Part shown: one piece after another, positions 2,147 to 16,411 of the stretch
Numbering within the stretch: position 1 is the first letter of the stretch
How the letters are laid out: every line of letters starts with the position of its first letter
Virus record (IMG/VR): IMGVR_UViG_3300045107_000067
Span: 1 to 36,661 of that record
Direction: 5' to 3' (one strand)
DNA: 36,661 bases
DNA from: a virus
Notes under the pieces: generated by a model
Told to the model about the DNA's origin: nothing
The model's database searches: none
The model's input: only the letters and a program-made list of their open reading frames with translations
Translations under genes and position numbers: made by a program

Positions 2147-2185
2147 TGTAGTCTCCTGTGTTGAGCTCGTCATCGAGCATGACGT

Positions 2186-2247
2186 AATCTAACACAGTGA
2201 TGAGCGCACTCAACGCCATCAGAGAGTTTTGGTTAACAAAGCGTTAA
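2186..2247 (-). promoter_or_regulatory. Promoter of the DUF932 gene with upstream TTAA-N7-TTAA box
   Basis: Read on the minus strand, the box TTAACGCTTTGTTAACC (TTAA cores span 2247-2233) lies upstream of a -35 TTGAGT (2213-2208). A 16-base spacer leads to the -10 TAGATT (2191-2186), preceded by TGTG as an extended element. From the box start it is 34 bases to the -35 start and 56 bases to the -10 start, the same as in four other promoters here. The box also lies upstream of the divergent promoter at 2258. Confidence 0.75.
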
Positions 2248-2257
2248 GTGGCTGCAT

Positions 2258-2286
2258 TTGCGATTAATTGCATACAGTGTTAGTAT
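2258..2286 (+). promoter_or_regulatory. Promoter of the 2325-3976 unit
   Basis: TTGCGA (2258-2263), a 17-base spacer and TAGTAT (2281-2286) precede the gene at 2325. The -10 is preceded by a GTGT extension, resembling the minus-strand promoters here. The TTAA-N7-TTAA box at 2233-2247 lies 48 bases upstream of the -10, so it may act on both divergent promoters. Confidence 0.6.
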
Positions 2287-2324
2287 TGCGCCCGGGAATA
2301 CACCACAAACCCAGGGGGTACATC

Positions 2325-2642
2325 ATGACTGACCGCGCACACGTTGTTTTTGCCAAGATCAAGGGACGCTCGCGAGACACGGGCGCAGGAATGCCGGTGT
2401 ACGGCGGAGACATCCAGTACTCCGAGACGCTGACTGTGAGTGCATCGCCGCAGACCACTTCTATCTCCGCGCCGGACCAGACGTTCGACGTGTTCGCCGA
2501 CATCACGACGGAGACGAGCTGCTGGGTTGCCACAGGTGCCACGCCTGCACCGGGAAGCAATCCCCGCTGGCTGCTGCTTGCCAACCAGAGCCTGACGCTT
2601 CGGCTGAAGTCCGGCGACAAGGTAGCTGTGGTGGCAGCATGA
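2325..2642 (+). CDS. Small hypothetical protein preceding the Calx-beta/SPRY gene
   Basis: A 105-residue protein of unknown family. Its sequence is beta-rich and Thr/Ser-rich, with no signal peptide or membrane segment. The start at 2325 is preceded by an AGGGGG ribosome-binding site; in-frame codons further upstream lack one. The stop overlaps the next start in an ATGA arrangement (2639-2642), which implies translational coupling. Its partner is an adhesion-type protein, so it may be a virion decoration or an assembly partner of that protein. That role is inference from context only. Confidence 0.75.
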   Translation: MTDRAHVVFAKIKGRSRDTGAGMPVYGGDIQYSETLTVSASPQTTSISAPDQTFDVFADITTETSCWVATGATPAPGSNPRWLLLANQSLTLRLKSGDKVAVVAA

Positions 2643-3976
2643 GGAACAGTCGGAACGTAAGACACTCACGACGCACCGGAACCGGTGGTAGCTCTTCAGG
2701 AGGTGACGACTTGCCCTCATACTATTCCGTCAACAGCCCCTCGGGTTCCGAAGGCGGCAACATGGTCTTCACGATCTCGCGCACTCAGGCGGGCATCGCG
2801 GAGCGCGTGAACTTCACGCTCACAGGTACAGCAACCAGCGGAGTCGATTACACACCGCCGGCCAATCTCTACGTCGACTTCCTCGCCGCAGACACGAGCA
2901 AGCAGGTCACGATCCCAGTCGCGACGGACTTGGTCAACGATGCGGCCGAGACCATCATCATGACGCTGACCAGCATCGTGAACACCTCGCGTCTCACTAC
3001 TCCCGTGGGTACGGGGACGATCACCGACCTGACTGCAGCTCCTGTGTATACCGTCGCAGTGTCCGGCAGCCCGACAGCTGAAGCTGGCTCGGCGATGACG
3101 TTCACGATCACTCGCACAACGACTGGCCTGGCGCAGACGGCGAACTTCACGCTGACGGGTACAGCGACCGAAGGAGTCGACTACACGACCTCCGCCTCGA
3201 CCTCGGTGAGCTTCGCGGCCGGGGACACGTCGAAGACCGTGACTATCACACCGCTGTCGGATACCAACTACGCTGAGAGCGACGAGACCGTTATCCTCAC
3301 GCTGACCTCGATCACCGGCTCGGGCACTGGTAGTGTCGGATCGCCGGGCTCGGCTACGGGCACGATCACCAACGTGGTCACCTACGCCTACTGGGACAAC
3401 GCGAACAAGGGCACGGGCAGCTTTGCTCCCGTCCTCGCCAACGTCAACAGCGTGCTGCGTTCTGTGAAGCCGAGCGCCGGTGGTCAGCGCGGCACAGTGC
3501 GCGGCAACGCGGGCAAGTCCAGCGGCAAGTGGTATTTCGAGCTGAAGCTTGTCTCGGGTACCGACGGCAACTTCGGCATGTCGCTCAACTCGGTCAGCCT
3601 CAACCAAGATATGTCGGGTGTCAACAACACCTTCCAGATCGTGATCTTCAATGGCAACGTCTATGTCAATGGGTCATTGACGAGCGGCGTGACACCGAGG
3701 CAGCCCGGCGTCTACTTCTTCGCTCTCGACAGGGACGCGGGCAAGGTGTACGTCGGAACATGCACGACGGCAGGTGCGAGCGTCGCCTGGGCGAACAGCG
3801 CTAACCCCGATGCCGGAACGGGCGGGATCACATGGAACCCGTCCGGTGCAGTGTTCTTCGATGCAAGTCCGTACTGGTCGGGCTCGCAGACCGAAGTGCA
3901 AGTCAACTGCGGTCAGGATGCGTTCATCGGACCCAAGAACTCGGTCTGCACAACGTTCAATCCCTGGACCATCTGA
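2639..3976 (+). CDS. Calx-beta repeat / SPRY-like adhesion-type protein
   Basis: The 445-residue product has a short basic and Gly/Ser-rich N terminus, then two Calx-beta repeats at about residues 25-115 and 135-240. Each repeat carries the diagnostic pairs FTLTGTATSGVDYT / FTLTGTATEGVDYT and AETIIMTLTS / DETVILTLTS. The C-terminal 200 residues resemble a SPRY/concanavalin-like lectin fold (GKWYFELKL, GNFGMSLNS, GVYFFALDRDAGKVYVG, PYWSGSQTEVQVNCGQ). Such folds are used in phage surface and receptor-binding proteins. There is no signal peptide. It is unusual that the gene lies in the early region rather than beside the tail genes. Its 3' end overlaps the convergent gene at 3913 by 64 bases. 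Confidence 0.8.
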   Translation: MRNSRNVRHSRRTGTGGSSSGGDDLPSYYSVNSPSGSEGGNMVFTISRTQAGIAERVNFTLTGTATSGVDYTPPANLYVDFLAADTSKQVTIPVATDLVNDAAETIIMTLTSIVNTSRLTTPVGTGTITDLTAAPVYTVAVSGSPTAEAGSAMTFTITRTTTGLAQTANFTLTGTATEGVDYTTSASTSVSFAAGDTSKTVTITPLSDTNYAESDETVILTLTSITGSGTGSVGSPGSATGTITNVVTYAYWDNANKGTGSFAPVLANVNSVLRSVKPSAGGQRGTVRGNAGKSSGKWYFELKLVSGTDGNFGMSLNSVSLNQDMSGVNNTFQIVIFNGNVYVNGSLTSGVTPRQPGVYFFALDRDAGKVYVGTCTTAGASVAWANSANPDAGTGGITWNPSGAVFFDASPYWSGSQTEVQVNCGQDAFIGPKNSVCTTFNPWTI

Positions 3977-4479
3977 CGATACCAGGTGGGTGGGCCTCGA
4001 CGCGTCCAACGCGCGTTCATCCCATCCACCTTCCACTTCGCCGCCATATACTGTCTATAGGCCGAGTGGACATCGTTGACGTGAGTGAAGTCGAGACCTC
4101 GCGCTAAGCTACGCGCACAGTTCACGAACTCCGTACGCTCGACCGGGATACGCTTTCCCCTGATCAGCTCGGGCATTCGATCAGCGGCGCACAGGATGAT
4201 TGTCGAGCTGGCGTGCTCACGATCATATCGCCGGCTGTATTCCTTCAGCAGCCACTCAGCGTGCAGGATCAACCACGACAGGTTGTCGGATGATGCACGC
4301 GCCCAGACAGCGCACGGGTGGTTGACGTGCGTCGGTCGATAGCCAAGATGCACGCCCATGACCTGTGACCAAGTCGTGCTGATCAGCTGTGCAGTCTCGA
4401 GCACCATCTTGACGAGGCGTCGATCATCGAGCGCTTCCGCGCACAACTTCGCCGAGGGATGGGTTGCGAAGATGTTCAT
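3913..4479 (-). CDS. Conserved phage protein of the MNIF...NHPC type
   Basis: The 188-residue protein starts MNIFATHP, followed by LDDRRLVKMVLETAQLIST and a central PTHVNHPCAVWARAS segment. Proteins with this layout are widespread in phages and are sometimes annotated as pyrimidine-dimer glycosylase-like. I cannot confirm that, so it is left unnamed. The start at 4479 has an AAGGGG ribosome-binding site and overlaps the stop of the DHFR gene as ATGA, indicating coupled translation. The Asp/Arg/Lys and His/Cys clusters look catalytic or nucleic-acid binding, but this is inference. The C terminus overlaps the convergent Calx-beta gene by 64 bases. Confidence 0.7.
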   Translation of the reverse strand: MNIFATHPSAKLCAEALDDRRLVKMVLETAQLISTTWSQVMGVHLGYRPTHVNHPCAVWARASSDNLSWLILHAEWLLKEYSRRYDREHASSTIILCAADRMPELIRGKRIPVERTEFVNCARSLARGLDFTHVNDVHSAYRQYMAAKWKVDGMNARWTRRGPPTWYRQMVQGLNVVQTEFLGPMNAS

Positions 4480-5003
4480 TGGAACCCCTTGAAGAACGGC
4501 CACTTCGCTTCGCGCGTCTGCTTGATGTGATCGGCGATGCTGCCCCACAATTTGGCTGCGTGCGTGTTGCCGGTCTTGAGCAGTCGACGGCCTGTGCTGC
4601 GCGTCCACTCCTCCATCTTCACGTTCTCCATGATCGCGCCCGTATCATCGTTCCAGAGCGACGGCATGACGCGATCAGCCACGCCGTCGTAGTTGATGTG
4701 AGTGATGTAGGAGCGACGGATCAGACCGCTGCGCAACCAGACCATGTAGATCGTCATGCCGCCGATCACGATGCCGTCGGGGTGCTTGTGCGCGATGTCG
4801 CGCGGGTCCTCGTGTCGCCGCTGAATGTAGAGCGTGCGATCCGGAAGCGGAGGCAGCTTCGCGGCGGTCACAGGACCGACGATGAGCGTGCGTCCCTTCG
4901 TCATGCCTTGGAACCAACGAAGGTCCTCAGCGTCGTTCCAGGGCAGCTTGCCATCGAGGCCGAGTTGTCCGTGTTTACCCACTGCTGCTATCAAGTCGAC
5001 CAC
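4476..5003 (-). CDS. folA: Dihydrofolate reductase
   Basis: The 175-residue product has the DHFR core: LIAAVGKHGQLGLDGKLPW at the N terminus, then EDLRWFQGMTKGRTLIVGP. The Asp in EDL matches the conserved acidic substrate-binding residue of bacterial DHFR. The nucleotide-binding IVIGGMTIY motif lies near residue 80. DHFR reduces dihydrofolate to tetrahydrofolate for thymidylate synthesis; phage copies boost nucleotide supply during replication. The start is taken as GTG at 5003 because AGGAGA lies just upstream and the DHFR fold begins at the next residues. The classic GRxTW segment is altered (GPVTAAKL). The stop overlaps the downstream start as ATGA. Confidence 0.85.
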   Translation of the reverse strand: MVDLIAAVGKHGQLGLDGKLPWNDAEDLRWFQGMTKGRTLIVGPVTAAKLPPLPDRTLYIQRRHEDPRDIAHKHPDGIVIGGMTIYMVWLRSGLIRRSYITHINYDGVADRVMPSLWNDDTGAIMENVKMEEWTRSTGRRLLKTGNTHAAKLWGSIADHIKQTREAKWPFFKGFQ

Positions 5004-5211
5004 GTCGTCTCTCCTGTTGTTGCTCGTAGAACTTAAGCTTGTCGAGTCGTGCGCGCAACGCGTTGTTCTCTTCAATTGTCAGCGCGCGTGACCTGATCGC
5101 TTCGCTGTAGTTATGCACGAGCGAGCTGAGCAGGTTCACAGGTACGCTTATGCTCCGTCGTCCCCGATGTCGTGCAATGGCGTTCTTGAGGAATTGAATT
5201 TCTTGTTCCAT
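4975..5211 (-). CDS. Small coiled-coil-like hypothetical protein
   Basis: A 78-residue product of unknown family, rich in Glu, Arg, Leu and Gln with a heptad-like C-terminal half (LTIEENNALRARLDKLKFYE). This is consistent with a short coiled coil. The ribosome-binding site is weak (AGGG about 10 bases upstream of ATG 5211). It overlaps the DHFR gene by 29 bases and the upstream gene by 64 bases, in keeping with the compressed leftward block. Function unknown. Confidence 0.55.
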   Translation of the reverse strand: MEQEIQFLKNAIARHRGRRSISVPVNLLSSLVHNYSEAIRSRALTIEENNALRARLDKLKFYEQQQERRRGRLDSSSG

Positions 5212-5465
5212 ACGTCGGCACCCTGGATCGCGAGATCACGAACACGGCGGAACTTCTCGTAGTGGGGGTGGGATGTATCGAGCAGGCGCAGCTCCTCGTA
5301 GATTTCCTCGAGCAGATGTTCCATGACCTCGACACGAAAGACCAAGGCCATAGCGCACTTCTGCGGGAGAGTGGTTGCGGGAAGACACTCGCGACGGGTG
5401 AACGAGCACAGGGCGTCGAGGTTCATGCGACGGATCGACTCCTCAGCTTTCGGCAAATCGACCAT
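5148..5465 (-). CDS. Small hypothetical protein
   Basis: A 105-residue product with a central amphipathic helical segment (EVMEHLLEEIYEELRLLD) and no recognisable domain. The start at 5465 (MVDLPKAEESI) has a GGGAG ribosome-binding site. The long upstream extension of the same frame is Ser/Arg-rich and is most likely a shadow of the neighbouring gene. The gene overlaps the upstream gene by 23 bases and the downstream gene by 64 bases. Function unknown; co-transcribed with the leftward early block. Confidence 0.6.
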   Translation of the reverse strand: MVDLPKAEESIRRMNLDALCSFTRRECLPATTLPQKCAMALVFRVEVMEHLLEEIYEELRLLDTSHPHYEKFRRVRDLAIQGADVWNKKFNSSRTPLHDIGDDGA

Positions 5466-5859
5466 CTTGAAACTCCCTACGTTCGCGCACGTAGACGTTA
5501 CCGTTCGCGTCACGATACACCACAACCTCGTCGCCGTCACCCATGACGACGCCGTTCGCCGGGAAGCCGCTGAAGCCGATGCGACTGACCTGCAGCTTAG
5601 CCACAGCGATGGCTTCGTAGTACGTACCCCTCTTGACGTGCTTGTGCGTCGGCGTGAAAGCGACACGCTCGAGTGCTCCTGTGAAGGTCACCGCTCGTTT
5701 CTCCCGGCGGATGCGCATCTCGATCTCGCACGACTTTTTGAACTCGTCCGCAGCGCTTAGCGCAGCTCCCCAGCCGGTCGCGTTCTTGATGTAGTCTTCC
5801 CACTTCTTGTGCTCGGCGGACAACTCCTCGTCCGTGAGGTCTTTAATCTGTTTTCCCAT
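5443..5859 (-). CDS. Hypothetical protein
   Basis: A 138-residue product of unknown family. The N-terminal 60 residues are charged and helical (DLTDEELSAEHKKWEDYIKNA). The C-terminal half looks beta-rich (GVVMGDGDEVVVYRDANGNVYVRERREF), so a two-part fold is likely. The start at 5859 is supported by a GGAGG ribosome-binding site. The gene overlaps the genes on either side by 17 and 23 bases. No function can be assigned. Confidence 0.65.
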   Translation of the reverse strand: MGKQIKDLTDEELSAEHKKWEDYIKNATGWGAALSAADEFKKSCEIEMRIRREKRAVTFTGALERVAFTPTHKHVKRGTYYEAIAVAKLQVSRIGFSGFPANGVVMGDGDEVVVYRDANGNVYVRERREFQDGRFAES

Positions 5860-6103
5860 CTTCAACCTCCGTTGCGCCTGATGCTCTGTAGAACTGATCG
5901 CGCGCCTGCGCGTCAGCAAACGTGTAGACGCGACCTGCGCGCGTGTTGTAGGAGCCCCAGTTCGTTGCGAGCGCACAGCGCTGAGCGAGCACGCGCTTCA
6001 GCGTCCTGTCGGGCACGAAACAACGATAGGGATTGCGAAGGAGCGCCTTCGCGATCCTCCGCATCTCCAACGTGTTCGGCGATGGTGACTTGTCTGTGAT
6101 CAA
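5843..6103 (-). CDS. Small hypothetical protein, TTG start
   Basis: An 86-residue basic product (MRRIAKALLRNPYRCFVPDR, then a GRVYTFADAQARDQFYRASG segment) of unknown family. Its start is TTG at 6103, preceded by AGGGGG, and it overlaps the TGA of the upstream gene as TTGA. This coupled arrangement supports the unusual start codon. The charge suggests possible nucleic-acid contact, but no motif proves it. Confidence 0.6.
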   Translation of the reverse strand: MITDKSPSPNTLEMRRIAKALLRNPYRCFVPDRTLKRVLAQRCALATNWGSYNTRAGRVYTFADAQARDQFYRASGATEVEDGKTD

Positions 6104-6237
6104 TCGAGCCCCCTCAGCTTGCGGATCGTTTTAATCCAGCGAATTGCCCACGCGTCACCGCGCTTGGCATCAAGAATGATCTCGAGAGCTTTCGCCCCCG
6201 AATGACCATGACCTGTCAGCACCTGATAGTCGCTCAT
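6100..6237 (-). CDS. Very small basic hypothetical protein (45 residues)
   Basis: A 45-residue product beginning MSDYQVLTGHGHSGAKALE with a basic C-terminal helix (IRWIKTIRKLRG). The start at 6237 has a CAGGAGG ribosome-binding site and overlaps the upstream stop by one base (TGATG). A longer in-frame extension to 6291 lacks a ribosome-binding site. It is tightly coupled between the DUF2786 gene and the TTG-start gene. Function unknown. Confidence 0.55.
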   Translation of the reverse strand: MSDYQVLTGHGHSGAKALEIILDAKRGDAWAIRWIKTIRKLRGLD

Positions 6238-6944
6238 CACTTGACCTCCTGTCTCAGCTTCACCTGGTTGCCGGCGGCGTTGCCCGCCCATGAACCCGAT
6301 CCCGACTTGATCGACACCTGGCGATTGGACTTGCGCACACCCGCTTCGGCGAAGAATTGCTCGACCTCATCCTCGAGCTCCTTGCGGTGGCTGATGATTG
6401 CCAACGCGGTGCCCGTCTTGGGAGCCGGCAGCGCGAGCGCCTCGGACGCGGCAGCGTCGTTCGCCATCATGTCCTTGACCAGCGCCTCGACGCGAGCGAA
6501 GACACGCAGCGCGCACGCCTCCTTGAACGTGCGGCGAAACTCGGCGCGATCCGACTTGCTCAGCCCGCGCGGCAACGCCTGCTTGTAGAACGTCTCGATC
6601 TGACTGCACAGCCAGCCGTACGTCAGCTGCGCCGCATCGATGTTGTCCTCGCGGCCGACGAATGTCACCTTGTCGCTTTCGCGACCACCCGAGTAGCGGA
6701 TGTACTTGCACCCGTACAGTCGGCCGGCGGCGTTCGCCATCCACAGCATCCAACGCTTGTCGGCTTCGAACATTGCCGACTCACGCGCCTTCTTCTCGAT
6801 CTTCTTGAACTCGGACTCGCTGATGCCGTGCTGCGTCATGAGACGCATTGCCATCTGCATCGCAGTGGCGGCCTCGTGTTCGGTCGCGCCCTTGTCGTGG
6901 GCGACGGCGAGCAGCTTCTGGATTTTTTCCTTGATCGCAGACAT
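6237..6944 (-). CDS. DUF2786 family protein
   Basis: The first 45 residues (IKEKIQKLLAVAHDKG, TEHEAATAMQMAMRLM, THGISE-type ending) are the DUF2786 domain found in phage and bacterial proteins of unknown role. The remaining 190 residues include KVTFVGREDNIDAAQLTYGWL and a Glu/Arg-rich helical region. The 235-residue length is ordinary for the family. The start at 6944 has AGGAGG upstream within an ACACAGGAG leader shared with other minus-strand genes here. It heads the leftward sub-operon 6944-3913 under a box promoter at 6974-7001. Confidence 0.8.
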   Translation of the reverse strand: MSAIKEKIQKLLAVAHDKGATEHEAATAMQMAMRLMTQHGISESEFKKIEKKARESAMFEADKRWMLWMANAAGRLYGCKYIRYSGGRESDKVTFVGREDNIDAAQLTYGWLCSQIETFYKQALPRGLSKSDRAEFRRTFKEACALRVFARVEALVKDMMANDAAASEALALPAPKTGTALAIISHRKELEDEVEQFFAEAGVRKSNRQVSIKSGSGSWAGNAAGNQVKLRQEVK

Positions 6945-6973
6945 CGTGTCCTCCTGTGTGTTTCGGTATAGAT

Positions 6974-7035
6974 ACTCTATCACAGCTACATGCTGCGTCA
7001 GGTACCGTACCCGGGCAGGGTTAACAAAGCGTTAA
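6974..7035 (-). promoter_or_regulatory. Promoter of the DUF2786 gene with upstream TTAA-N7-TTAA box
   Basis: On the minus strand the box TTAACGCTTTGTTAACC (cores 7035-7021) is followed by -35 CTGACG (7001-6996), a 16-base spacer and -10 TAGAGT (6979-6974) with a TGTGA extension. Distances from the box start are 34 to the -35 and 56 to the -10. The upstream gene's TAA (7032-7034) is embedded in the box. Confidence 0.75.
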
Positions 7036-7367
7036 GCCGGGCGCACCTTGTAACCCGTCATGTCCTCGTGTTCGATGGGCAGCCCGTTGTAGTTGGGCAC
7101 CGTCGCCGCTGCGAGATCGTCGAGACGCGACCACGTCCACCGAACCTTCTCGCCGCGCTTGACGTGCTGAAAGAACCCGTTGGGATTGACCAGCCCGAAC
7201 GATGGGCCGTGCACTGTGACTGCCATCGACTTGCGCGACGGCGACTGCTCAACGCGATTGACGTTCCACCCGCGGTCGAGCAGATAGCGCAGCGTGTTGT
7301 GCTGGAAGCCGCTCGTGTGATCGAGGGCAAAGAGGTTGAGCTGAGCCTGAGTCAGTCGGCGTGCCAT
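7032..7367 (-). CDS. Hypothetical protein
   Basis: A 111-residue basic product of unknown family. It contains a helical N terminus (TQAQLNLFALDHTSGFQHNTLRY region) that could be a helix-turn-helix. A beta-rich middle (MAVTVHGPSFGLVNPNGFF) and a KVRWTWSRLDDL segment follow. The start at 7367 has AGGAG upstream in an ACACAGGAG leader. It is the only gene between two box promoters, and its stop codon lies within the downstream box. A DNA-binding role is conceivable but not shown. Confidence 0.65.
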   Translation of the reverse strand: MARRLTQAQLNLFALDHTSGFQHNTLRYLLDRGWNVNRVEQSPSRKSMAVTVHGPSFGLVNPNGFFQHVKRGEKVRWTWSRLDDLAAATVPNYNGLPIEHEDMTGYKVRPA

Positions 7368-7397
7368 CGGTGTTCTCCTGTGTTCATCCGATGTCGT

Positions 7398-7459
7398 ACT
7401 CTAACACAGGCAGCAGCTATGTCAGCCACCGCCTGTGCTCGTAGTTAACAGATCGTTAA
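7398..7459 (-). promoter_or_regulatory. Promoter of the 7367 gene with upstream TTAA-N7-TTAA box
   Basis: On the minus strand the box TTAACGATCTGTTAACT (cores 7459-7445) precedes -35 CTGACA (7425-7420), a 16-base spacer and -10 TAGAGT (7403-7398) with a TGTGT extension. The 34 and 56 base distances match the other box promoters. A further TTAA at 7463 overlaps the upstream gene's stop. Confidence 0.75.
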
Positions 7460-7462
7460 GGC

Positions 7463-8137
7463 TTAACGACCGCGGCCTCCGCCACCATGGCCGCCGCCCT
7501 GTCCGTTGTTCTGTCCTCCGTTGCCGGAGCCCGGACCGTTCCCGTTCGTGTTCCCGCCGCCGTTGCCGGAGTTCGGGTTGTTGCCGTTCCCATTGCCGGG
7601 ACCGCTGCCGTTGTGCCCGTTGTTGCCGCCACCATTGCCCGTGCCGGGACCCGATCCGCCAGTGTTGCCACCGCCATTGCCCGGATTGCCGTGGTTGCCG
7701 TTGCCGTTGCCCGGTCCATCGCCACCACGCCCGGGCCCATCGCCGTGACCGTGACCATGGTCATCGCCTCGCCCCGGTCCGTCGCCCTTCGGACCTTCAC
7801 CGTGTCCGCCACCGCCGTGATGACCGCCAGGGCCCCCGTGACCGCCAGGGCCGCCAGGATGGTCACCTCCACCGCCAGGCTTATCGGGCGTCGAAGGTCC
7901 GGCGGGACCCGGTGCAACTGGGTCAGGAGCAGGACTGCTAGTGTTGCCACCAGCGACGCCAACAGGATTGGATGCTGCACGATCTCCTCCTTCCCCGTAC
8001 GAGCGGAACCCAGCCGCGAAGCAGCCGTTGCGCTCAAAGAACCCCATCGGCTCGCGACAGTTGCTCGCCGCCATCGATGCGTTGCACCCCGACAGGATCA
8101 TCAAGGATGCCATTGTCGTGAAGATTACTCGAGTCAT
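7463..8137 (-). CDS. Gly/Asn-rich lipoprotein
   Basis: The 224-residue product begins with a short signal sequence (MTRVIFTTMASLMIL) ending in a lipobox LSGC. It should therefore be lipidated at Cys18 and anchored to a membrane. After a Cys-containing segment of 25 residues, the rest is extreme low complexity: Pro/Gly-rich, then Gly/His/Asp-rich, then repeating GNGN, GGGN and GPGN units. The ribosome-binding site is AAGGGAG before ATG 8137. The 5' 104 bases overlap the end of the upstream gene in another frame. The role is unknown; options include a surface or periplasmic lipoprotein that blocks superinfection, or a lysis-related lipoprotein, but neither is shown. Confidence 0.75.
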   Translation of the reverse strand: MTRVIFTTMASLMILSGCNASMAASNCREPMGFFERNGCFAAGFRSYGEGGDRAASNPVGVAGGNTSSPAPDPVAPGPAGPSTPDKPGGGGDHPGGPGGHGGPGGHHGGGGHGEGPKGDGPGRGDDHGHGHGDGPGRGGDGPGNGNGNHGNPGNGGGNTGGSGPGTGNGGGNNGHNGSGPGNGNGNNPNSGNGGGNTNGNGPGSGNGGQNNGQGGGHGGGGRGR

Positions 8138-9044: not shown

Positions 9045-9072
9045 CGTGTATCCCTCCTGTGACACGTAGTAA

Positions 9073-9100: not shown

Positions 9101-9112
9101 CGATGAAGTCTC

Positions 9113-10454: not shown

Positions 10455-10489
10455 GATGGTGGGACCAGCGTTTGTGGCACTGGCCCCAA

Positions 10490-10517: not shown

Positions 10518-10718
10518 CGCGCGGGCATCGCTCTCGGTCGTGAACTTGTTCACCTTCGCCTTGCACACCACGACCCACTTGCCGGGCTCGGGCGACATCA
10601 CGACGACGGAGGTGACAGCCGGCTTGTGCGGCTTGTCGGGATCGACGTGCGGCTTCGGCTGCGGGAGCACAGGGAAGCGACGACGACGCGTGCCGAGGTA
10701 ATCGCGAGCGTGCTTCAT
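10497..10718 (-). CDS. Small basic hypothetical protein
   Basis: A 73-residue product with a basic, proline-rich N-terminal half (RDYLGTRRRRFPVLPQPKP). The C-terminal half (GKWVVVCKAKVNKFTTESDARAFARTLL) looks like a small beta-beta-alpha fold. The start ATG 10718 overlaps the upstream TGA as ATGA. The alternative longer frame upstream is Arg/Ala-rich and is a shadow. Function unknown. Confidence 0.6.
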   Translation of the reverse strand: MKHARDYLGTRRRRFPVLPQPKPHVDPDKPHKPAVTSVVVMSPEPGKWVVVCKAKVNKFTTESDARAFARTLL

Positions 10719-10918
10719 CCGTCGATCACACCGCGGTCGATGAGCTTCTGCTTCTGCGACGTGCGCAGCTGCTCGAGCTTGTCGAGGAACTTCTCGAACT
10801 GTCCCTTGGCGAAACGCTCGCGCTCGCCGCCGGTCAGCCACTTGGCATCCTCGTGACATGGGACGCCCTGAGCGCCCTTCTCGAACTGGAAGTGCTTCGC
10901 GAAATTGCCGTACTTCAT
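10715..10918 (-). CDS. Small hypothetical protein
   Basis: A 67-residue charged, mostly helical product (GGERERFAKGQFEKFLDKLEQLRTSQKQKL) of unknown family. The start at 10918 has an AAGGAAG ribosome-binding site. It is translationally coupled to the next gene by an ATGA overlap. No motif identifies a function. Confidence 0.65.
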   Translation of the reverse strand: MKYGNFAKHFQFEKGAQGVPCHEDAKWLTGGERERFAKGQFEKFLDKLEQLRTSQKQKLIDRGVIDG

Positions 10919-10969
10919 TTGATCTTCCTTCCGTTGACTGTGGTCAGTAGACTCACAGGAGTGATGTGA

Positions 10970-11341
10970 TTAGGCGTGAGCAGCACCGTTGTCTTGCTGT
11001 GCATCCTGATGACCGTCCCCGTGAACTTCGCTCCTAAACACGAAGCGCCCTCGACCTTGTCTCCAGGATTTAACTTGATCTTCATCCACCTCGACTCCGA
11101 TAATGTTCACGTCGAAGACATTGAGGCAAGCCTCGATATGCGTCAACAGTGGATTTGCGCGCGTCTTCCACTGGCGTATCGTTGTTCTCTGCACACCACT
11201 GCGCTCGGCGAGTTCCTTCATCGTCATGAGGTGCTGGTTCATGAGCCGGAACAGGTATCGCACGAGCGGATGAGCATGCTCGGGCACGCGCTGCTTGCGG
11301 TAGTGAGGCCGGTGCAGCTCCGGAGGTTTGCGCGCGGTCAT
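10970..11341 (-). CDS. XRE/Cro-CI-type helix-turn-helix regulator
   Basis: The 123-residue product has a helix-turn-helix of the Cro/CI kind at about residues 38-85. MTMKELAERSGVQRTTIRQWK gives the turn and recognition helix, followed by NPLLTHIEACLNVFDVNI. The N terminus is basic (RPHYRKQRVPEHAHP). The C terminus is Gly/Gln/His-rich and probably flexible. It should bind DNA as a dimer and regulate phage transcription. Its start overlaps the upstream stop as ATGA. It is one of the phage-encoded candidates for binding the TTAA boxes in this window, although XRE operators usually look different. Confidence 0.8.
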   Translation of the reverse strand: MTARKPPELHRPHYRKQRVPEHAHPLVRYLFRLMNQHLMTMKELAERSGVQRTTIRQWKTRANPLLTHIEACLNVFDVNIIGVEVDEDQVKSWRQGRGRFVFRSEVHGDGHQDAQQDNGAAHA

Positions 11342-11547
11342 GTCAATAACTTCTCCACGGTTCGGTAGCCCCTTTCATCGATCTGGACTTGGTCGCCGTT
11401 CATAAGGACGAGATAAACATCGCCCTCGTGGAAGTGAAGGAAGCAGATGGATCGGATCGGAATAACGTAGACGTCGTGTGGTCCCTGCACATGGATAGAT
11501 TTGGGCTTCTTCGTGTCGGGACGAGGAACGCGGAAATGCTCACACAT
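11338..11547 (-). CDS. Small hypothetical protein
   Basis: A 69-residue product with a beta-rich core (VYVIPIRSICFLHFHEGDVYLVLMNGDQVQI) of unknown family. The start at 11547 has a strong AAAGGAG ribosome-binding site 6 bases upstream. It is coupled to the XRE regulator by an ATGA overlap, so the two are probably produced together. It could be a cofactor of that regulator, but nothing in the sequence proves it. Confidence 0.65.
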   Translation of the reverse strand: MCEHFRVPRPDTKKPKSIHVQGPHDVYVIPIRSICFLHFHEGDVYLVLMNGDQVQIDERGYRTVEKLLT

Positions 11548-11576
11548 GGTGATCTCCTTTGTTGCTGACCTGTGAA

Positions 11577-11605
11577 TGATCAGTTCAGCGATCCTCGCTC
11601 GTCAA
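11577..11605 (-). promoter_or_regulatory. Possible promoter of the 11547-XRE gene pair
   Basis: On the minus strand, TTGACG (11605-11600), a 17-base spacer and TGATCA (11582-11577) precede the gene at 11547. The -10 is a weak match. The 95-base gap to the upstream gene's end leaves room for a promoter. Confidence 0.3.
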
Positions 11606-11642
11606 CGCTTCTCACTCTAGTGTTACCAAATGTTGCGGGATG

Positions 11643-11867
11643 TTACTCCATCATCCTCGCATCGCACGGCTTCGCAGTGCACGCCCAGTGCACGTGGTTG
11701 TTGCTGCGCGCCTTGCTGAGGCGCACGCTGTCCTTCGTCCCACAGATCGGGCAAGTCGCCTTGGCCACGTCGAGCTTCTTGTCGATCATGCGCTGCTTCA
11801 TCTTCACGTGGAACGTGACCATCTTGGCGAACTTCTCTCTGCTCATGGCTTGTGCAAACTCAGTCAT
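11643..11867 (-). CDS. Small zinc-ribbon-like protein
   Basis: A 74-residue product with a basic helical N-terminal half (FAKMVTFHVKMKQRMIDKK). This is followed by a CPICG knuckle and a second cysteine pair (WACTAKPC) 27 residues later, consistent with a zinc ribbon. Such small phage proteins often bind nucleic acid. ATG 11867 overlaps the upstream stop as ATGA. The ribosome-binding site is weak, so translation probably depends on coupling. Confidence 0.65.
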   Translation of the reverse strand: MTEFAQAMSREKFAKMVTFHVKMKQRMIDKKLDVAKATCPICGTKDSVRLSKARSNNHVHWACTAKPCDARMME

Positions 11868-12115
11868 AGGCCCACGTCTCCAGAAGTTGGGTTGCGTTGA
11901 TCGCCGGCAGTTCCTGGTCGGGGAACCGGTAGCCGGCTTCCGACACGGCGCGCACGATGCACCATCTGTTCGTAGGTCATCGGATGCGGATCGAGCACCT
12001 CCTCGCCGTTGATCCGCGCTTCGAGATATTCGATGCGGTCCACGAAGTCCTTGAGCACGTCGGGCAGGTTGTACCGCTGCCGGATGCGACGGCGTAACTC
12101 GTTGTAAAAGCTCAC
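11864..12115 (-). CDS. Small hypothetical protein, GTG start
   Basis: An 83-residue product beginning with GTG at 12115 (SFYNELRRRIRQRYNLPD), preceded by a strong AAGGAGG and overlapping the upstream TGA as GTGA. Its middle, IEYLEARINGEEVLDPHPMTYEQMVHRARRVG, resembles small phage proteins seen in early regions, but no named family is recognised. The longer frame upstream of this start is a shadow of the 12579 gene. It is coupled at both ends by ATGA/GTGA overlaps. Confidence 0.65.
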   Translation of the reverse strand: MSFYNELRRRIRQRYNLPDVLKDFVDRIEYLEARINGEEVLDPHPMTYEQMVHRARRVGSRLPVPRPGTAGDQRNPTSGDVGL

Positions 12116-12579
12116 GAATACCTCCTTACGATGATGTCGCCAGTGGCGAGCTGGGTTATGCGGACGGTGAAGCCGAAGCGTCGTGCGGCCATGTGGAACG
12201 TGCCGCGTGTTGCCTTGCCGAGAGCAGAGCGCGTGACGCGGAACCTGTCGCCCTCTTTCTTGAGGTACGTCGTGAAGGCGTGATCCCACCGCCCGTGCTT
12301 GTATAGCCGAACAGTGGTGGTGTCGACCACAGGAACGCCTTCGTTGTCGAGCCGCGCCTGCTTGTCGAGCAGCTCGTGGTACAGCCGCTTGTATCGATTG
12401 CGGCTTTCGGTGAGCTGCTTGATCTCCGTGCGCGGCGGGATCGGTCGAGTGACTGCCTTGATGACCCATATGGGCACGAACACCGACGCGTTGTCGTGAT
12501 CGGTTGGCTTGATCTGATGCTTGGCCAACGCCTCGAGCCAGGCAAGCGCATTCGCGCGTATCTCGTCAGTGGAGTGCAT
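12112..12579 (-). CDS. Hypothetical protein
   Basis: A 155-residue basic product of unknown family. The N-terminal half is helical (IRANALAWLEALAKHQI, then a coiled segment ESRNRYKRLYHELLDKQARLD). The C-terminal half is beta-rich with many Arg/Lys residues. The start at 12579 has an AGGAT ribosome-binding site. It overlaps the upstream gene by 14 bases and the downstream gene as GTGA. A nucleic-acid-binding role is plausible from charge only. Confidence 0.65.
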   Translation of the reverse strand: MHSTDEIRANALAWLEALAKHQIKPTDHDNASVFVPIWVIKAVTRPIPPRTEIKQLTESRNRYKRLYHELLDKQARLDNEGVPVVDTTTVRLYKHGRWDHAFTTYLKKEGDRFRVTRSALGKATRGTFHMAARRFGFTVRITQLATGDIIVRRYS

Positions 12580-12790
12580 GGCCGATCATCCTGCGGATGG
12601 ACAGCTCGGCGGTGGCGAGCAGATGCGCCTGCTTCTCGATATACCTCAGGAGGCGCTCATTCTCGAGCGCGAGTGTATGCGTGGCGAGCTGCAGCGACTG
12701 GATCGTCTCCGACGAATAGCTTAGCGGCAGCGGGCGGCTTGAAGTACGGGACCCTTTTCTCAAATGCTTTTCCTCTCTTGTAGAGACCAT
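12566..12790 (-). CDS. Small coiled-coil-like protein (start uncertain)
   Basis: A 74-residue frame from ATG 12790 whose second half (LATHTLALENERLLRYIEKQAHLLA) is a convincing amphipathic helix. The first half lies within the 3' end of the upstream gene and looks like a shadow, and the ribosome-binding site is poor. The true start may therefore be a non-standard codon nearer 12700. The frame ends 14 bases into the downstream gene. Function unknown. Confidence 0.4.
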   Translation of the reverse strand: MVSTREEKHLRKGSRTSSRPLPLSYSSETIQSLQLATHTLALENERLLRYIEKQAHLLATAELSIRRMIGHALH

Positions 12791-13088
12791 GTTCCAGTGG
12801 GGCGATGCCTGCCTGCGTCCAGAACTTGAACAGCTCGGGACCGGTATGCTGCCAGCGGGACTCCTCGAACAGCCGGCGTCGGCGCATGAACACCCGGTAG
12901 GCGTCATTGCCCCACGCGCAGCCGTGCGTGAAGGGGTCGTAGAGAGCGAGATCGTACCGGTCGATGTATTCCTCGAGCCACTCGAGCGCCTGTGTCTCGA
13001 GGTGCCAGAACGGAAGGGGGCCACAGCGCTGCTGCTTGAGCAGACCGACGCTACGCTTTTCGTTGCTGCTTGCCACGAGCTGATACAT
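12657..13088 (-). CDS. Hypothetical protein
   Basis: A 143-residue product with many aromatic and charged residues (PFWHLETQALEWLEEYIDRYDLALYDPF, WGNDAYRVFMRRRRLF). No family is recognised. ATG 13088 is preferred; in-frame GTG codons at 13148 and 13160 lie further inside the upstream gene. One of these (13148) also has a GAGG nearby, so the start is open. It overlaps the upstream gene by 38 bases. Confidence 0.6.
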   Translation of the reverse strand: MYQLVASSNEKRSVGLLKQQRCGPLPFWHLETQALEWLEEYIDRYDLALYDPFTHGCAWGNDAYRVFMRRRRLFEESRWQHTGPELFKFWTQAGIAPLEHGLYKRGKAFEKRVPYFKPPAAAKLFVGDDPVAAARHAYTRARE

Positions 13089-13515
13089 GGGCAGCACGAT
13101 CCCTCTTCCGGTAATACGCAGCGAGACTGGCGGCTCGAATTTTCTCACGCTTTTCCTCACTCTCCTTGTCGACCTGTTCGGACACTACGCTCAAGTATAT
13201 TGCCAGGTCAACGAGGAAAGTCTTGTATTTCTGAGTGCGCAAGAGTCTAGTCTGCAGGTTGGAATACCGCCGGAGTTGAGTGGATGCGCGGAGCAGCACT
13301 GGTGCGATTTGCTCCCGGACGTGCTGTGGCATCAACCGGTCACCAGCGAGGTACCGTCTGGCAGAGCGCTCGTCTACTCCGGTAAGTAGGGCGAGAAAAA
13401 CTGAGTCCCACTGGAGAAATCTGCAGGCGATAATCACCGGGTCTGCGCTCTCATGAATGCCCACCATGAGGTGCTTTAATCGCTGCTTTATCAACGTCTT
13501 AGCTTGTTTGTGCAT
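13051..13515 (-). CDS. HTH-like early protein at the head of the leftward block
   Basis: The 154-residue product contains WDSVFLALLTGVDERSARRYLAGDRLMPQHV around residues 35-65. This resembles the helix-turn-helix of small phage regulators with the pattern GVDERSxRRWxAG. The rest is basic and helical, ending KREKIRAASLAAYYRKRD. It is the first gene transcribed leftward from the 13516-14196 control region, the usual place for an early regulator. The ribosome-binding site before ATG 13515 is weak. Confidence 0.6.
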   Translation of the reverse strand: MHKQAKTLIKQRLKHLMVGIHESADPVIIACRFLQWDSVFLALLTGVDERSARRYLAGDRLMPQHVREQIAPVLLRASTQLRRYSNLQTRLLRTQKYKTFLVDLAIYLSVVSEQVDKESEEKREKIRAASLAAYYRKRDRAAHVSARGKQQRKA

Positions 13516-13543
13516 GCTGGCCGTTCGCGGTCTAGGGATTGGT

Positions 13544-13572
13544 AGTGTACGCCACAGGATCGATGAATGCAA
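13544..13572 (-). promoter_or_regulatory. Promoter for the start of the leftward block
   Basis: On the minus strand, TTGCAT (13572-13567), a 17-base spacer and TACACT (13549-13544) lie about 30 bases before the start at 13515. No TTAA-N7-TTAA box is found at the 56-base position used by other promoters. Confidence 0.45.
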
Positions 13573-13619
13573 ATGCGGGTTGTTGCTTTGCGCGCGTAGG
13601 GGCGTGTGTGGTGTGCGTG

Positions 13620-13666
13620 TGCCGGTGCGCATTATGCGCGCTTATACGCGCATGTGAAAACCGGCA
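13620..13666. repeat. Nested inverted repeat
   Basis: An outer 7-bp pair, TGCCGGT (13620-13626) with ACCGGCA (13660-13666), encloses an inner perfect 7-bp pair, ATGCGCG (13634-13640) with CGCGCAT (13647-13653), around the loop CTTATA. It lies at the edge of the T/G-rich non-coding region. Confidence 0.7.
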
Positions 13667-14046
13667 AATTTGCTAATCATCATCATATAGTTAGTGTTAG
13701 TGTGTTGATATTGCTGGTGAAAATGATGATTGGTGTTGAGTGTCCGAAAGAGGTACTTCATTTACGATGGTGTGTTAAGTCATTGATTTTGTTGATGTCG
13801 ACTTTTTGAGAGTTCGTGAAAAGCGTGATGTTTCAGCTGGTTAGATGGTGATCGTGTGTGATGTATCCAGTGGCCTAATCTTCATACGGGTAGTTTTTGT
13901 TGTGCTGGATCAATGACTTAGTGTCTGATCGTTGATGATGTGTCTCGACGGTGTTTGCCTTCGTCACGCGTAATGCGCTGCGCACGTACCGCCCCTACGA
14001 GGCTTGGACCTGTGAGTGGGGGGGGTAGTGTGTGGATGGACAAGAT

Positions 14047-14077
14047 GTGGATTAGGGGCTGGGTGGCCCATATCCAC
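14047..14077. repeat. Inverted repeat / hairpin
   Basis: GTGGAT (14047-14052) pairs with ATCCAC (14072-14077), and an inner GGGC/GCCC pair closes the loop. It could act as a terminator for any transcript entering the region or as a protein-binding site. There is no T-tract. Confidence 0.45.
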
Positions 14078-14109
14078 CTTCTAAAAGACCAAACGGCCAC
14101 TCCAGTCTC

Positions 14110-14132
14110 TTAATCTTAATCTTTAACGTTAA
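14110..14132. promoter_or_regulatory. Composite TTAA operator, copy 1
   Basis: Four TTAA words start at 14110, 14116, 14123 and 14129, giving TTAA-N2-TTAA-N3-TTAA-CG-TTAA. The pattern is dyad-symmetric because TTAA is self-complementary. It ends 13 bases before the -35 of the rightward promoter. The same spacing recurs in the 15440-15587, 16240-16309 and 16834-16856 clusters. Confidence 0.65.
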
Positions 14133-14145
14133 TTCTCACCCACTA

Positions 14146-14174
14146 TTGAGACTCTATACCCATTGATGTAGACT
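14146..14174 (+). promoter_or_regulatory. Promoter of the rightward early block
   Basis: TTGAGA (14146-14151), a 17-base spacer and TAGACT (14169-14174) lie 22 bases before the start at 14197. The hexamers resemble those of the DUF932 promoter (TTGAGT and TAGATT). Confidence 0.55.
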
Positions 14175-14196
14175 CTGAAGATCACGGAGGGAACCG

Positions 14197-14547
14197 ATGA
14201 TAGTCTTGAAGCACCTCTGCCGCGAGTTCGACCTTGAGCCACGTCGCTTGCGGATGGTCCTGCGCTCACACTACGGCAACCGAGGGAGATGGAAATGGGA
14301 AGACGACGCAAGCGAACTGAAAACGATCCGCGACCTGTTGCGGGATACATTGAACCGTCCAGCCCCCAAAGGCCGCCCACCTCGTGCCTCTACTTCCACA
14401 AGGACGGTCGAGACCTCATCGTCAACTTCTGCCACGACGGCGCAGCAGCCCGATACCTCGAGCTGGTTGGCGAAGGCGAAGGTCCGTACCGTTGGCGGAA
14501 AGACGAAGCTGGTCGTCACGCGATCATCTACGAAAGCGGCATCGTAG
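14197..14547 (+). CDS. Small winged-helix-like protein with Ser/Thr-rich tail
   Basis: The first 50 residues (MIVLKHLCREFDLEPRRLRMVLRSHY, then RGRWKWEDDASELKTIRDLL) look like a small phage winged-helix domain. Similar segments occur at the C terminus of the 14295 product and in the 16453 product. The remaining 65 residues are Ser/Thr-rich and low complexity, and lie entirely inside the overlapping 14295 gene, so they may have no function of their own. ATG 14197 has a strong GGAGGG ribosome-binding site. A -1 slip in the overlap would fuse this domain to the next frame. Confidence 0.6.
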   Translation: MIVLKHLCREFDLEPRRLRMVLRSHYGNRGRWKWEDDASELKTIRDLLRDTLNRPAPKGRPPRASTSTRTVETSSSTSATTAQQPDTSSWLAKAKVRTVGGKTKLVVTRSSTKAAS

Positions 14548-14915
14548 CCCGCGCCTCGTCACTCGAGGAGCTGGAGCGGATCATCGAGTCCGATCCTCTC
14601 GATGAGCTGCCTGAACCGCACGAGCGGAACATCGCCAACTTCAAGAGCGATCACGTCCGCGAGTACGTTCCTCGCGAGACACGGAAGCAGAAGCGTGAGC
14701 GTCGAGCTGGCGAAGAGCGGGAGCCAAAGCAACCGCGCTTGCCGAAGCCCGACACGTCCGGTCTCGTAGGCGTGAGCTGGCTCGCAGAGAAGCTCAACGT
14801 CGAAGGCAAAGACGTACGGGTTGCGCTACGTGCGCAGTTCAAGAAGCCTGACATCGGTTGGCTGTGGGACCCTACCGAAGCCGAGAAGGTTCTCAAGTCC
14901 CTGAAGCTACGTTAA
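14295..14915 (+). CDS. Winged-helix-containing early protein
   Basis: The 206-residue product has an N-terminal module at about residues 25-95 (CLYFHKDGRDLIVNF, RWRKDEAGRHAIIYESGIVARASSLEELERII). A highly charged linker (KQKRERRAGEEREPKQPRLPK) follows. The C-terminal domain of about 50 residues (SWLAEKLNVEGKDVRVALRAQF, GWLWDPTEAEKVLKSLK) resembles the N-terminal domain of the 14197 product. ATG 14295 is chosen because GAGGGAG lies 6 bases upstream; the ATG at 14289 is too close to it. It overlaps the previous gene by 253 bases in the -1 frame. A DNA-binding role is likely from the fold type. Confidence 0.7.
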   Translation: MGRRRKRTENDPRPVAGYIEPSSPQRPPTSCLYFHKDGRDLIVNFCHDGAAARYLELVGEGEGPYRWRKDEAGRHAIIYESGIVARASSLEELERIIESDPLDELPEPHERNIANFKSDHVREYVPRETRKQKRERRAGEEREPKQPRLPKPDTSGLVGVSWLAEKLNVEGKDVRVALRAQFKKPDIGWLWDPTEAEKVLKSLKLR

Positions 14916-14962
14916 TGGGGAGCTGGCATTAAATGGAAGCTGGCGTTAATGAGAAGCTGGCG
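14912..14962. repeat. Three tandem 17-bp imperfect repeats
   Basis: TTAATGGGGAGCTGGCA (14912-14928), TTAAATGGAAGCTGGCG (14929-14945) and TTAATGAGAAGCTGGCG (14946-14962) are head-to-tail. They cover the stop codon of the 14295 gene and the start codon of the next gene. Each begins with TTAA and contains AGCTGGC. Confidence 0.75.
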
Positions 14963-15235
14963 TCTCGGCTGCCGGTGAGGCCGCGGCTGATCCGCCTGAT
15001 CCGGAAAGCATTGCGTGACCGATACAGTCTTGCCATGCACGTCGCCAAGCATCCACGACCTCCTCCCGACCTCGTGCGCAAGTTCCGACGGTCAGACGTG
15101 CGAGTCGACGGCCTCATCTCCCTGTGCGGCAGGCATCTTGTGGCCGCCTATACCGACAGGGAGGTGTGCCTTCTGATGACCGAGGGTGAGTTGAAGCGCC
15201 TGGAGGCCTCTCTAGGGCCCGAGAGGGATGACTAA
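14933..15235 (+). CDS. Small basic hypothetical protein
   Basis: A 100-residue product, strongly basic in its first 60 residues (PVRPRLIRLIRKALRDRYSLAMHVAKH). A more hydrophobic, beta-rich half follows (VDGLISLCGRHLVAAYTDREVCLLMTEGELKRLE). No family is recognised. The start at 14933 lies within the 17-bp tandem repeats, with a GGGGAG sequence about 11 bases upstream, so its translation may be affected by whatever binds there. Function unknown. Confidence 0.55.
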   Translation: MEAGVNEKLASRLPVRPRLIRLIRKALRDRYSLAMHVAKHPRPPPDLVRKFRRSDVRVDGLISLCGRHLVAAYTDREVCLLMTEGELKRLEASLGPERDD

Positions 15236-15439
15236 GCAAATTCCCTCGACATTCACCGGCTCTCGGGCGCCTGGCTGCCCTCTAGGTTCGTTGCGTGACG
15301 CAACTTGAGCGACTTCGACGGTGCAAAATCACCATGCACGACGCTAGACACGTATCGATGCGGATCAAGAGCCCGCTAGAGATGTCTAGAGATCTAGAGA
15401 TGTCTAGAGACCGAGGTGTGGCCACGCCACCGCGACGTC
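15236..15439. other. Non-coding region with short palindromes and tandem repeats
   Basis: No gene is seen here. The region holds a perfect palindrome GTTGCGTGACGCAAC (15290-15304), an 18-bp tandem repeat at 15376-15411, and a small GTGGC/GCCAC hairpin at 15418-15430. It runs directly into the TTAA array that starts at 15440. Confidence 0.6.
15376..15411. repeat. 18-bp tandem repeat built from CTAGAGA words
   Basis: CTAGAGATGTCTAGAGAT (15376-15393) is followed at once by CTAGAGATGTCTAGAGAC (15394-15411). Each unit contains two CTAGAGA words, so four occur in 36 bases. The junctions create palindromes such as TCTAGA. Confidence 0.75.
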
Positions 15440-15618
15440 TTAACCTTACTTGTTAACGTTAAGGCCCCATTAACCTTAACTCTTAACGTTAACGGCATCT
15501 TAATGGTTAACGCCATCTTAACCTTAATTCTTAACGTTAACACTCCGTCTATCTTAACGCTTTGGTAACGTCTATTCTTAACGTTAACGCCACCCGTGCC
15601 ACCTTAACGCTTTGTTAA
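15440..15618. promoter_or_regulatory. TTAA operator array upstream of the 15692 gene
   Basis: Two motif types interleave. Composite TTAA-N2-TTAA-N3-TTAA-N2-TTAA copies lie at 15440-15462 (one word TTAC), 15470-15492, 15518-15540 and, degenerate, 15565-15587. TTAA-N7-TTAA boxes lie at 15459-15473, 15489-15503, 15507-15521, 15554-15568 (second word GTAA) and 15604-15618. Neighbouring motifs share TTAA words, which gives a nearly continuous array on the scale of one helical turn. This suggests cooperative binding of a regulator. Confidence 0.7.
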
Positions 15619-15637
15619 CCACATGCAGGTGTGGCAC

Positions 15638-15665
15638 CTGACACGCCGCAGCAGTCTTGTATGAT
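15638..15665 (+). promoter_or_regulatory. Promoter of the 15692 gene with box at 15604
   Basis: CTGACA (15638-15643), a 16-base spacer and TATGAT (15660-15665) precede the gene. The box TTAACGCTTTGTTAACC starting at 15604 is 34 bases before the -35 start and 56 before the -10 start. Confidence 0.75.
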
Positions 15666-15691
15666 GTGAAGGTCAACAACGAGGACACGCC

Positions 15692-15898
15692 ATGGCCTAC
15701 TACATGCTCTTCACCCGCCCCTACGTGACGCACAAGTGGGCGCCGCAATTCGGCGACTACAAGCGCAAGGACGTTGAGCAGGAACGTCGCGACTCGTTCC
15801 CGCGCCTCGCCGGCAAGCTGTGGCGCATCGTGCGCCTTGCCGACGACCACAAGAACACGCTCGACGCCGTGACGAGGGAAATCAATGGCGATCAGTGA
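15692..15898 (+). CDS. Small basic hypothetical protein
   Basis: A 68-residue product (MAYYMLFTRPYVTHKWAP, then DVEQERRDSFPRLAGKLWRIVRLADDH) of unknown family. The start has GAGG 7 bases upstream in a leader containing GTCAACAACGAGG. The same leader string precedes the 17558 gene. It overlaps the next gene by 14 bases. It is probably an early host-interaction protein judging by size and promoter, but this is inference. Confidence 0.65.
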   Translation: MAYYMLFTRPYVTHKWAPQFGDYKRKDVEQERRDSFPRLAGKLWRIVRLADDHKNTLDAVTREINGDQ

Positions 15899-16184
15899 GC
15901 AGGAATATCACGCTCTCGTGTCGCGGCGCAAGCCGCGGCATGAGGTTGACACCACCCTGTGGATGCGCGCACACCTCGCCCCGCCGGAGGACGGGAAGGT
16001 CGCCGCGTATTCGTTCGAATATGAAGACCTCGTGTTAACGGTCCGTGCACCATACCGCGCAGCAGTCGACGCGGCGGTGCGATACTTTCGCCAGGAAAAC
16101 ACCAGCGAAGTTGCCGTCAATTATATCCGCCTGCTTCCGTCAAAGTTTAAGCATGGCGATGAGGCAAAGGTGACGCGCATTTAG
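15885..16184 (+). CDS. Small hypothetical protein
   Basis: A 99-residue product beginning MAISEQEYHALVSRRKPRHE, with a beta-rich middle (KVAAYSFEYEDLVLTVRAPYRAA) and a conserved-looking helix (VDAAVRYFRQENT). No family is recognised. The ribosome-binding site GAGGG is 6 bases upstream, and the start lies inside the previous gene's 3' end, so the two are co-translated. A TTAA array begins 22 bases after its stop. Confidence 0.65.
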   Translation: MAISEQEYHALVSRRKPRHEVDTTLWMRAHLAPPEDGKVAAYSFEYEDLVLTVRAPYRAAVDAAVRYFRQENTSEVAVNYIRLLPSKFKHGDEAKVTRI

Positions 16185-16205
16185 CGCGCCACTCTTTACG
16201 CCTTG

Positions 16206-16364
16206 TTAACGTTAACGGAGTGTTAAGCTTCACGTCTTGTTAACGTTAACTGTTAAGGTTACCGACGGGTTAAGATTTACGTCTCAGTAATGTTACGAGT
16301 TAACGTTAATGGAGCGTACAGAAACATGGTTAACGGTGGGTGGGCCACTTTAACGGTTCATTAA
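16206..16364. promoter_or_regulatory. TTAA operator array upstream of the 16453 gene
   Basis: TTAA-N7-TTAA boxes lie at 16212-16226 and 16350-16364. Composite copies lie at 16240-16262 (last word TTAC) and 16287-16309 (GTAA, TTAC, TTAA, TTAA). Extra single TTAA words occur at 16206, 16270 and 16330. No gene is seen between 16185 and 16452. Confidence 0.65.
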
Positions 16365-16383
16365 CCATTGCGGACGGATGCAC

Positions 16384-16411
16384 CTGACATGCGGGTCGGG
16401 TGTGATAATGT
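16384..16411 (+). promoter_or_regulatory. Promoter of the 16453 gene with box at 16350
   Basis: CTGACA (16384-16389), a 16-base spacer and TAATGT (16406-16411) with a TGTGA extension precede the gene. The box TTAACGGTTCATTAACC starts 34 bases before the -35 and 56 before the -10, as in the other box promoters. Confidence 0.7.

Follow-up and report, generated by a model that had tools for sequence, protein, structure and literature searches.

The question raised by this locus is which protein reads a set of TTAA-N7-TTAA boxes lying at an exactly fixed distance from predicted promoters of a siphophage, and with what effect on the genes behind them. The window (the whole 36,661-nt stretch analysed here, IMG/VR record IMGVR_UViG_3300045107_000067) is one part of the phage genome. 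A sequence-only reading of this DNA took the boxes for sites of CtrA, the alphaproteobacterial cell-cycle regulator, and the box does agree with the CtrA consensus. Our answer is that the boxes are probably sites of host CtrA, used in two promoter designs which would tie a small gene set to a phase of the host cell cycle.

A longer record of the same phage has 54,458 bp, and its coordinates equal the window position plus 29,457. Window position 25,029 is base 1 of this longer record; the genome maps as a circle, because the right part of the window runs on into the start of that record. The phage encodes terminase, portal, scaffold, capsid and tail proteins, together with a family A DNA polymerase, helicase, exonuclease and thymidylate synthase. 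Searches of the phage for an integrase, and of its proteins for a response-regulator DNA-binding domain (Trans_reg_C), found none, and no near relative of the window turned up in the phage and plasmid collections. Among isolates, the nearest relatives by large terminase subunit (TerL) and DNA polymerase include Brevundimonas phages Strzyga and Polewnik (for Strzyga, 50% in TerL and 45% in DNA polymerase), and most TerL relatives found inside genomes are alphaproteobacterial. Boxes are rare in the other terminase relatives, and the box trait is therefore not inherited across this terminase clade. Depletion of GANTC as a sign of a CcrM host was dropped, CTNAG being equally depleted.

Boxes and promoters at one fixed distance

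The window contains 13 TTAA-N7-TTAA boxes against 0.04 expected, and the whole-genome scan proposed in the sequence-only reading found the same 13, and no further ones, in the 54,458-bp record. The boxes are confined to 2.2-17.9 kb of the window and every one lies between genes, although the 7021 box runs 4 nt into the end of a gene; the intergenic share of window positions 1-18500 is ~17%. Three 17-mers are identical (TTAACGCTTTGTTAACC), as had been noticed before. Phages wired to host CtrA have already been published as "LPEG" phages, defined by a normalised positional entropy of CtrA sites <0.75 (PMC9437464). Following the published definition of entropy, with the exact consensus scored in place of the position-specific scoring matrix of that study, we obtained 0.63 for the 13 sites on the 54,458-bp record, and random placement averages 0.955; the phage thus lies below the LPEG threshold with more than the five sites that must be exceeded. 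Its sites also have the intergenic, promoter-region placement of LPEG phages, and eight predicted promoters have fixed registers. Adsorption through pili or flagella is frequent in LPEG phages but not obligatory, and the present sequence offers no evidence on the receptor.

When we scanned downstream of each box for the best sigma-70-type promoter, with no distance set in advance, six boxes (2247-, 7035-, 7459-, 15604+, 16350+ and 16870+) shared one offset, the -35 element lying at 34 and the -10 element at 56 bases with a 16-base spacer. One offset was common to at most two boxes in 5,000 random placements, and to at most three when 5,000 further placements were jittered by no more than 40 bases. 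The six promoters have pairwise identities of 0.85 (box), 0.72 (-35), 0.63 (-10) and, near background, 0.32 (linker). The spacing is kept while the linker sequence has diverged, and because of this divergence recent duplication fails as an explanation. Five of these promoters had been reported by the sequence-only reading, and all five are present with the distances and the spacer that it gave; its count fell short, since it overlooked the sixth at 16870+, along with 17500+, 17807+ and the half-site arrays.

Taking the start of the -10 element as -12, the box centre falls at -61, and the class I position which had been attributed to it is correct; activation from this position is plausible. 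At CRP-type class I promoters the centre of the activator site lies at about -61 or, one helical turn further out, at about -71; class I activation depends on helical phase and on contact with the C-terminal domain of the RNA polymerase alpha subunit. The same geometry, a site centred near -61 or -71 upstream of an intact -35, is found here at 34/56 and in other phages at 34 and 44; unlike CRP, the regulator here would be an OmpR-family response regulator.

Two further boxes follow the second design. Full CtrA sites of Caulobacter promoters have their 5' position at -35/-39 (PMC4287350), and the boxes at 17500 and 17807, with the 5' end near -38, match these sites and phiCbK gp018. Only these two have a 5' end between -35 and -39 that overlaps the -35 element; the six class I promoters were tested against the same criterion and, having no such overlap, are not classed as host-type. 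The plus-strand promoters are moreover preceded by three arrays of TTAA half-sites, whose gaps are mostly 6, 7 and 11 bp, and Strzyga has comparable box clusters with gaps of 10-11 and 7.

The same register in other phages

Two scans of IMG/VR were made with the gap between box and -35 left variable, the scan for a CTTGC-type -35 covering offsets 21-51, and counts were deduplicated. Because contigs of low G+C (GC) content yield many chance matches, conclusions are limited to contigs of GC>=0.5 plus contig L185. With the CTTGC-type -35 the offset was 34 in 10 of 18 and 44 in 4, and 35, 37, 45 and 50 occurred once each; a decoy box with the half-site letters reversed gave four matches, none at 34 or 44. 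With the YTGAC-type -35, the present phage being excluded, three of seven were at offset 44. L185, whose terminase is like those of phiCbK-like and roseobacter phages, carries eight promoters at 34 and four at 44. The two offsets are one helical turn apart; the registers are suggestive, and may reflect a need for one helix face. In 37 such promoters of other phages, the second TTAAC is followed by C, A and T in 33, 29 and 30 cases, respectively, giving TTAACCAT. This extension was absent from the query pattern and yet is present in most of the 37; TTAACCAT is a previously reported CtrA motif (PMC6180460).

Other box-rich contigs keep different fixed registers, 16 in L239 and 25-26 or 31 in L177/L198. 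L239 (IMGVR_UViG_3300021399_000107, 165 kb) has 68 boxes within 11.6 kb, including a dense tandem array near 6.7-7.3 kb, and several of its boxes abut a strong TTGAC-N17-TATAAT promoter (-10 at +39); L177/L198 (IMGVR_UViG_3300040801_002879, 87 kb, GC ~0.4) has consensus promoters with the -35 at +25/26 or +31 from the box, which may serve CtrA or another regulator. In L148, L185, L258, L264, L274 and L289, several promoters of the 34 register have their -35 set between the arms of a long inverted repeat, which differs from phage to phage (in L258, CTTGAGAAGCCCTTGCGGCTTCTCAAG), as if it were a second operator for a phage repressor; in the window promoters such repeats are weak only. In AT-rich contigs offset 33 also seemed to form a peak, which shrinks once related contigs are removed and was not used.

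When 385 alphaproteobacterial genomes were searched with this pattern, its -35 relaxed to TTGA or TTGC, 15 matches were obtained, and the reversed pattern gave a comparable number. Judged by match length, one host match was at 34 and none at 44, so that in these genomes host promoters of such a design are scarce, if they occur at all. Caulobacter CtrA-activated promoters use the same box as the phage and share the register of 17500 and 17807, but their full sites lie at -35 (PMC4287350), and sites at -61/-71 with an intact -35 are essentially absent from the 385 genomes.

The published LPEG phages, among them Brevundimonas phage Delta, phiCbK and Mesorhizobium phage Cp1R7A-A1 (PMC9437464), resemble the present phage in clustered intergenic TTAA-N7-TTAA boxes before small orphan genes, in low positional entropy and probably in being of alphaproteobacterial type, and this likeness requires no common ancestry. 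The present phage differs in having six promoters at the single upstream register 34/56, and single boxes at dispersed minus-strand promoters; in phiCbK gp005 and gp018, unlike these six, the box is near -35. Supplementary figures aside, the text of PMC9437464 gives no spacing rule and uses neither "spacing" nor "transcription start", and in the literature searched we found no fixed upstream register common to unrelated phages and unseen in hosts. CtrA use by phages is already known, a precedent of which the sequence-only reading was unaware, and this phage is a new member on testable criteria; what is new is the upstream geometry.

Features of the window

The features are collected in the table. 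The 16870 promoter has two boxes, because the 16887 box abuts its -35.

Boxes, predicted promoters, half-site arrays and genes in the window (aa, amino acids)
Feature	Position	Strand	Sequence	Remarks
CtrA-type box, class I register	2233..2247	-	TTAACGCTTTGTTAACC	for DUF932 gene
Predicted promoter	2186..2213	-	TTGAGT-N16-TAGATT	34/56 bases downstream of 2247 box
DUF932 protein (PF06067, phrog_1221)	1199..2173	-		first gene behind 2247 box
CtrA-type box, class I register	7021..7035	-	TTAACGCTTTGTTAACC	
Predicted promoter	6974..7001	-	CTGACG-N16-TAGAGT	
DUF2786/DUF7168 protein	6237..6944	-		behind 7035 box
CtrA-type box, class I register	7445..7459	-	TTAACGATCTGTTAACT	
Predicted promoter	7398..7425	-	CTGACA-N16-TAGAGT	
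Orphan protein, 111 aa	7032..7367	-		no family found; behind 7459 box
CtrA-type box, class I register	15604..15618	+	TTAACGCTTTGTTAACC	
Predicted promoter	15638..15665	+	CTGACA-N16-TATGAT	
Two small orphan genes, 68 aa and 99 aa	15692..16184	+		behind 15604 box
CtrA-type box, class I register	16350..16364	+	TTAACGGTTCATTAACC	
Predicted promoter	16384..16411	+	CTGACA-N16-TAATGT	
Orphan gene, 108 aa	16453..16779	+		behind 16350 box
Sixth class I box	16870..16884	+	TTAACGCTCCATTAACG	
Second box of 16870 promoter	16887..16901	+		abuts -35 (-35 at +17, -10 at +39)
Predicted promoter	16904..16931	+	TTGACC-N16-TATGAT	
Orphan gene, 161 aa	16965..17450	+		behind 16870/16887 boxes
Predicted canonical (class II) CtrA promoter	17500..17531	+	TTAATGGTTTCTTAAC	box replaces -35; -10 TATACT at +26; gene 17558-17764
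Predicted canonical (class II) CtrA promoter	17807..17838	+	TTAACACTTTCTTAAT	box replaces -35; -10 TACACT at +26; gene 17869-18074
Array 1, 18 TTAA half-sites	15440..15618			contains boxes 15459, 15489, 15507, 15604
Array 2, 12 TTAA half-sites	16206..16364			contains boxes 16212, 16350
Array 3, 7 TTAA half-sites	16780..16901			contains boxes 16870, 16887

The 2233-2247 box sits between divergent promoters; the plus-strand one, TTGCGA-N17-TAGTAT with its -35 at +25, leads to 2325-2642 and then to a Calx-beta domain protein (2639-3976). In three phages, L281, L148 and that of the window (1199-2173), the leading gene downstream of a class I box belongs to the DUF932 family. As a general association this was rejected as weak, a box being present <=300 nt upstream in 3 of 76 DUF932 loci, the present phage included, and the stretches read of ZS04 and S-ESS1, relatives of the DUF932 gene of a box-bearing contig, contained no box. 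Short repeats of TCTAGAGA (ctagagatgtctagagatctagagatgtctagagac) occupy 15380-15412, just upstream of the first half-site array. Apart from these elements, an FkbM-type methyltransferase gene (PF05050) and an overlapping 252-aa gene with no known family lie at 9113-10398, both on the minus strand.

Host CtrA and the alternatives

Wiring to host CtrA, as the sequence-only reading had suggested, is well supported by the consensus, by the two boxes in host register, by the LPEG criterion and by a CtrA-activated promoter of like geometry (PMC9437464). This last is the gp019 promoter of Cp1R7A-A1, proven for CtrA by electrophoretic mobility shift assay and lacZ: phosphorylated CtrA (CtrA~P) binds it, and a strain with temperature-sensitive ctrA expresses gp019 at a level nearly two-fold lower (PMC9437464). 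In our reading of its sequence the -35 is at 44 and the -10 at 66; of two sister promoters, one is at 44/66 and the other at 34/56.

At the six promoters of the window, CtrA~P would bind the full box near -61, upstream of intact -35 and -10 elements, and may act like a class I activator that touches RNA polymerase from upstream; at the other two, CtrA would take the -35 position, as it does in the host. Ahead of the plus-strand promoters, the half-site arrays may load more CtrA and thereby set a threshold or timing. Mostly orphan genes, with those for the DUF932 and DUF2786 proteins, would in this manner be coupled to the host phase of high CtrA~P. We give an even chance to the view that convergence has led unrelated phages of alphaproteobacteria to a CtrA promoter unused by their hosts, a class I promoter at -61/-71 that keeps its -35 intact. 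Such a promoter could provide basal expression as the phage enters and a boost at high CtrA~P, and it might bypass host control of CtrA promoters of the -35 type.

Several points weigh against activation by host CtrA. All promoters of the window are predictions from consensus matches, the host assignment is indirect, through TerL and DNA polymerase relatives, and the proven gp019 promoter is just ~2-fold CtrA-dependent. The box clusters of Strzyga contain no recognisable promoters of the 34 or 44 register, and since this register was not found in hosts, class I action of CtrA has no host precedent. In addition, upstream CtrA sites reduce and delay expression of pilA (PMC11264516), and the phage Delta gene DELTA_120, which has a dense box cluster, is repressed by CtrA and becomes derepressed when CtrA fails (PMC9437464). 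Because of these two cases activation is not certain, and the main rival is that CtrA binds, yet the upstream boxes and arrays restrain or delay the promoters, a lytic deferment by repression as at pilA sites 2-4 and DELTA_120. The 15440-15620 arrays are similar to the Delta gap region, and the promoters, having fair -35 and -10 elements, might fire unaided. A box centred at -61, however, obstructs neither promoter element; the registers 34 and 44, which differ by one helical turn, are at classic class I positions and fit polymerase contact better than blocking; and the sole tested promoter of such geometry is CtrA-activated. The C. crescentus pilA promoter likewise has several CtrA boxes upstream, but it differs in having a box at -35 in addition to the reducing and delaying sites (PMC11264516), whereas most promoters here have no box at -35. 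On balance we regard repression as unlikely.

The sequence-only reading had also allowed for a phage-encoded protein with a similar site. The phage does encode an HTH_3 protein, and two products would be candidates, an XRE-like one (10970-11341) and another encoded at 13051-13632. Some temperate phages carry dispersed repressor sites; here, where no integrase was found, a repressor of the stoperator style is improbable. A phage regulator is in general very unlikely, because unrelated phages share the box, its extension and the register and would all need the same regulator, the only shared candidate being host CtrA, and two boxes match the host CtrA register. Least probable of all is a role of the boxes in marking an origin of replication or a partition array, in which case the promoter spacing would be incidental or left over from the duplication of promoter cassettes. 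The tandem half-sites of the three arrays are AT-rich, and CtrA sites also occur in the Caulobacter origin, but single boxes far from the arrays keep the same offset at three minus-strand promoters, the linkers have diverged to background, and the offset recurs in other phages.

With activation by host CtrA as the preferred reading, the qualitative fact of CtrA sites in phages becomes an exact promoter grammar, which a pattern search can detect. This grammar suggests that activation by CtrA from an upstream site is possible, a mode unseen in the sampled host promoters. From sequence alone, the register can mark out phages that read the cell cycle of alphaproteobacteria, and small genes of no known function are flagged by it as candidate cell-cycle-timed takeover genes. 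Phages of this kind seem to read the host cell cycle through a promoter design of their own.

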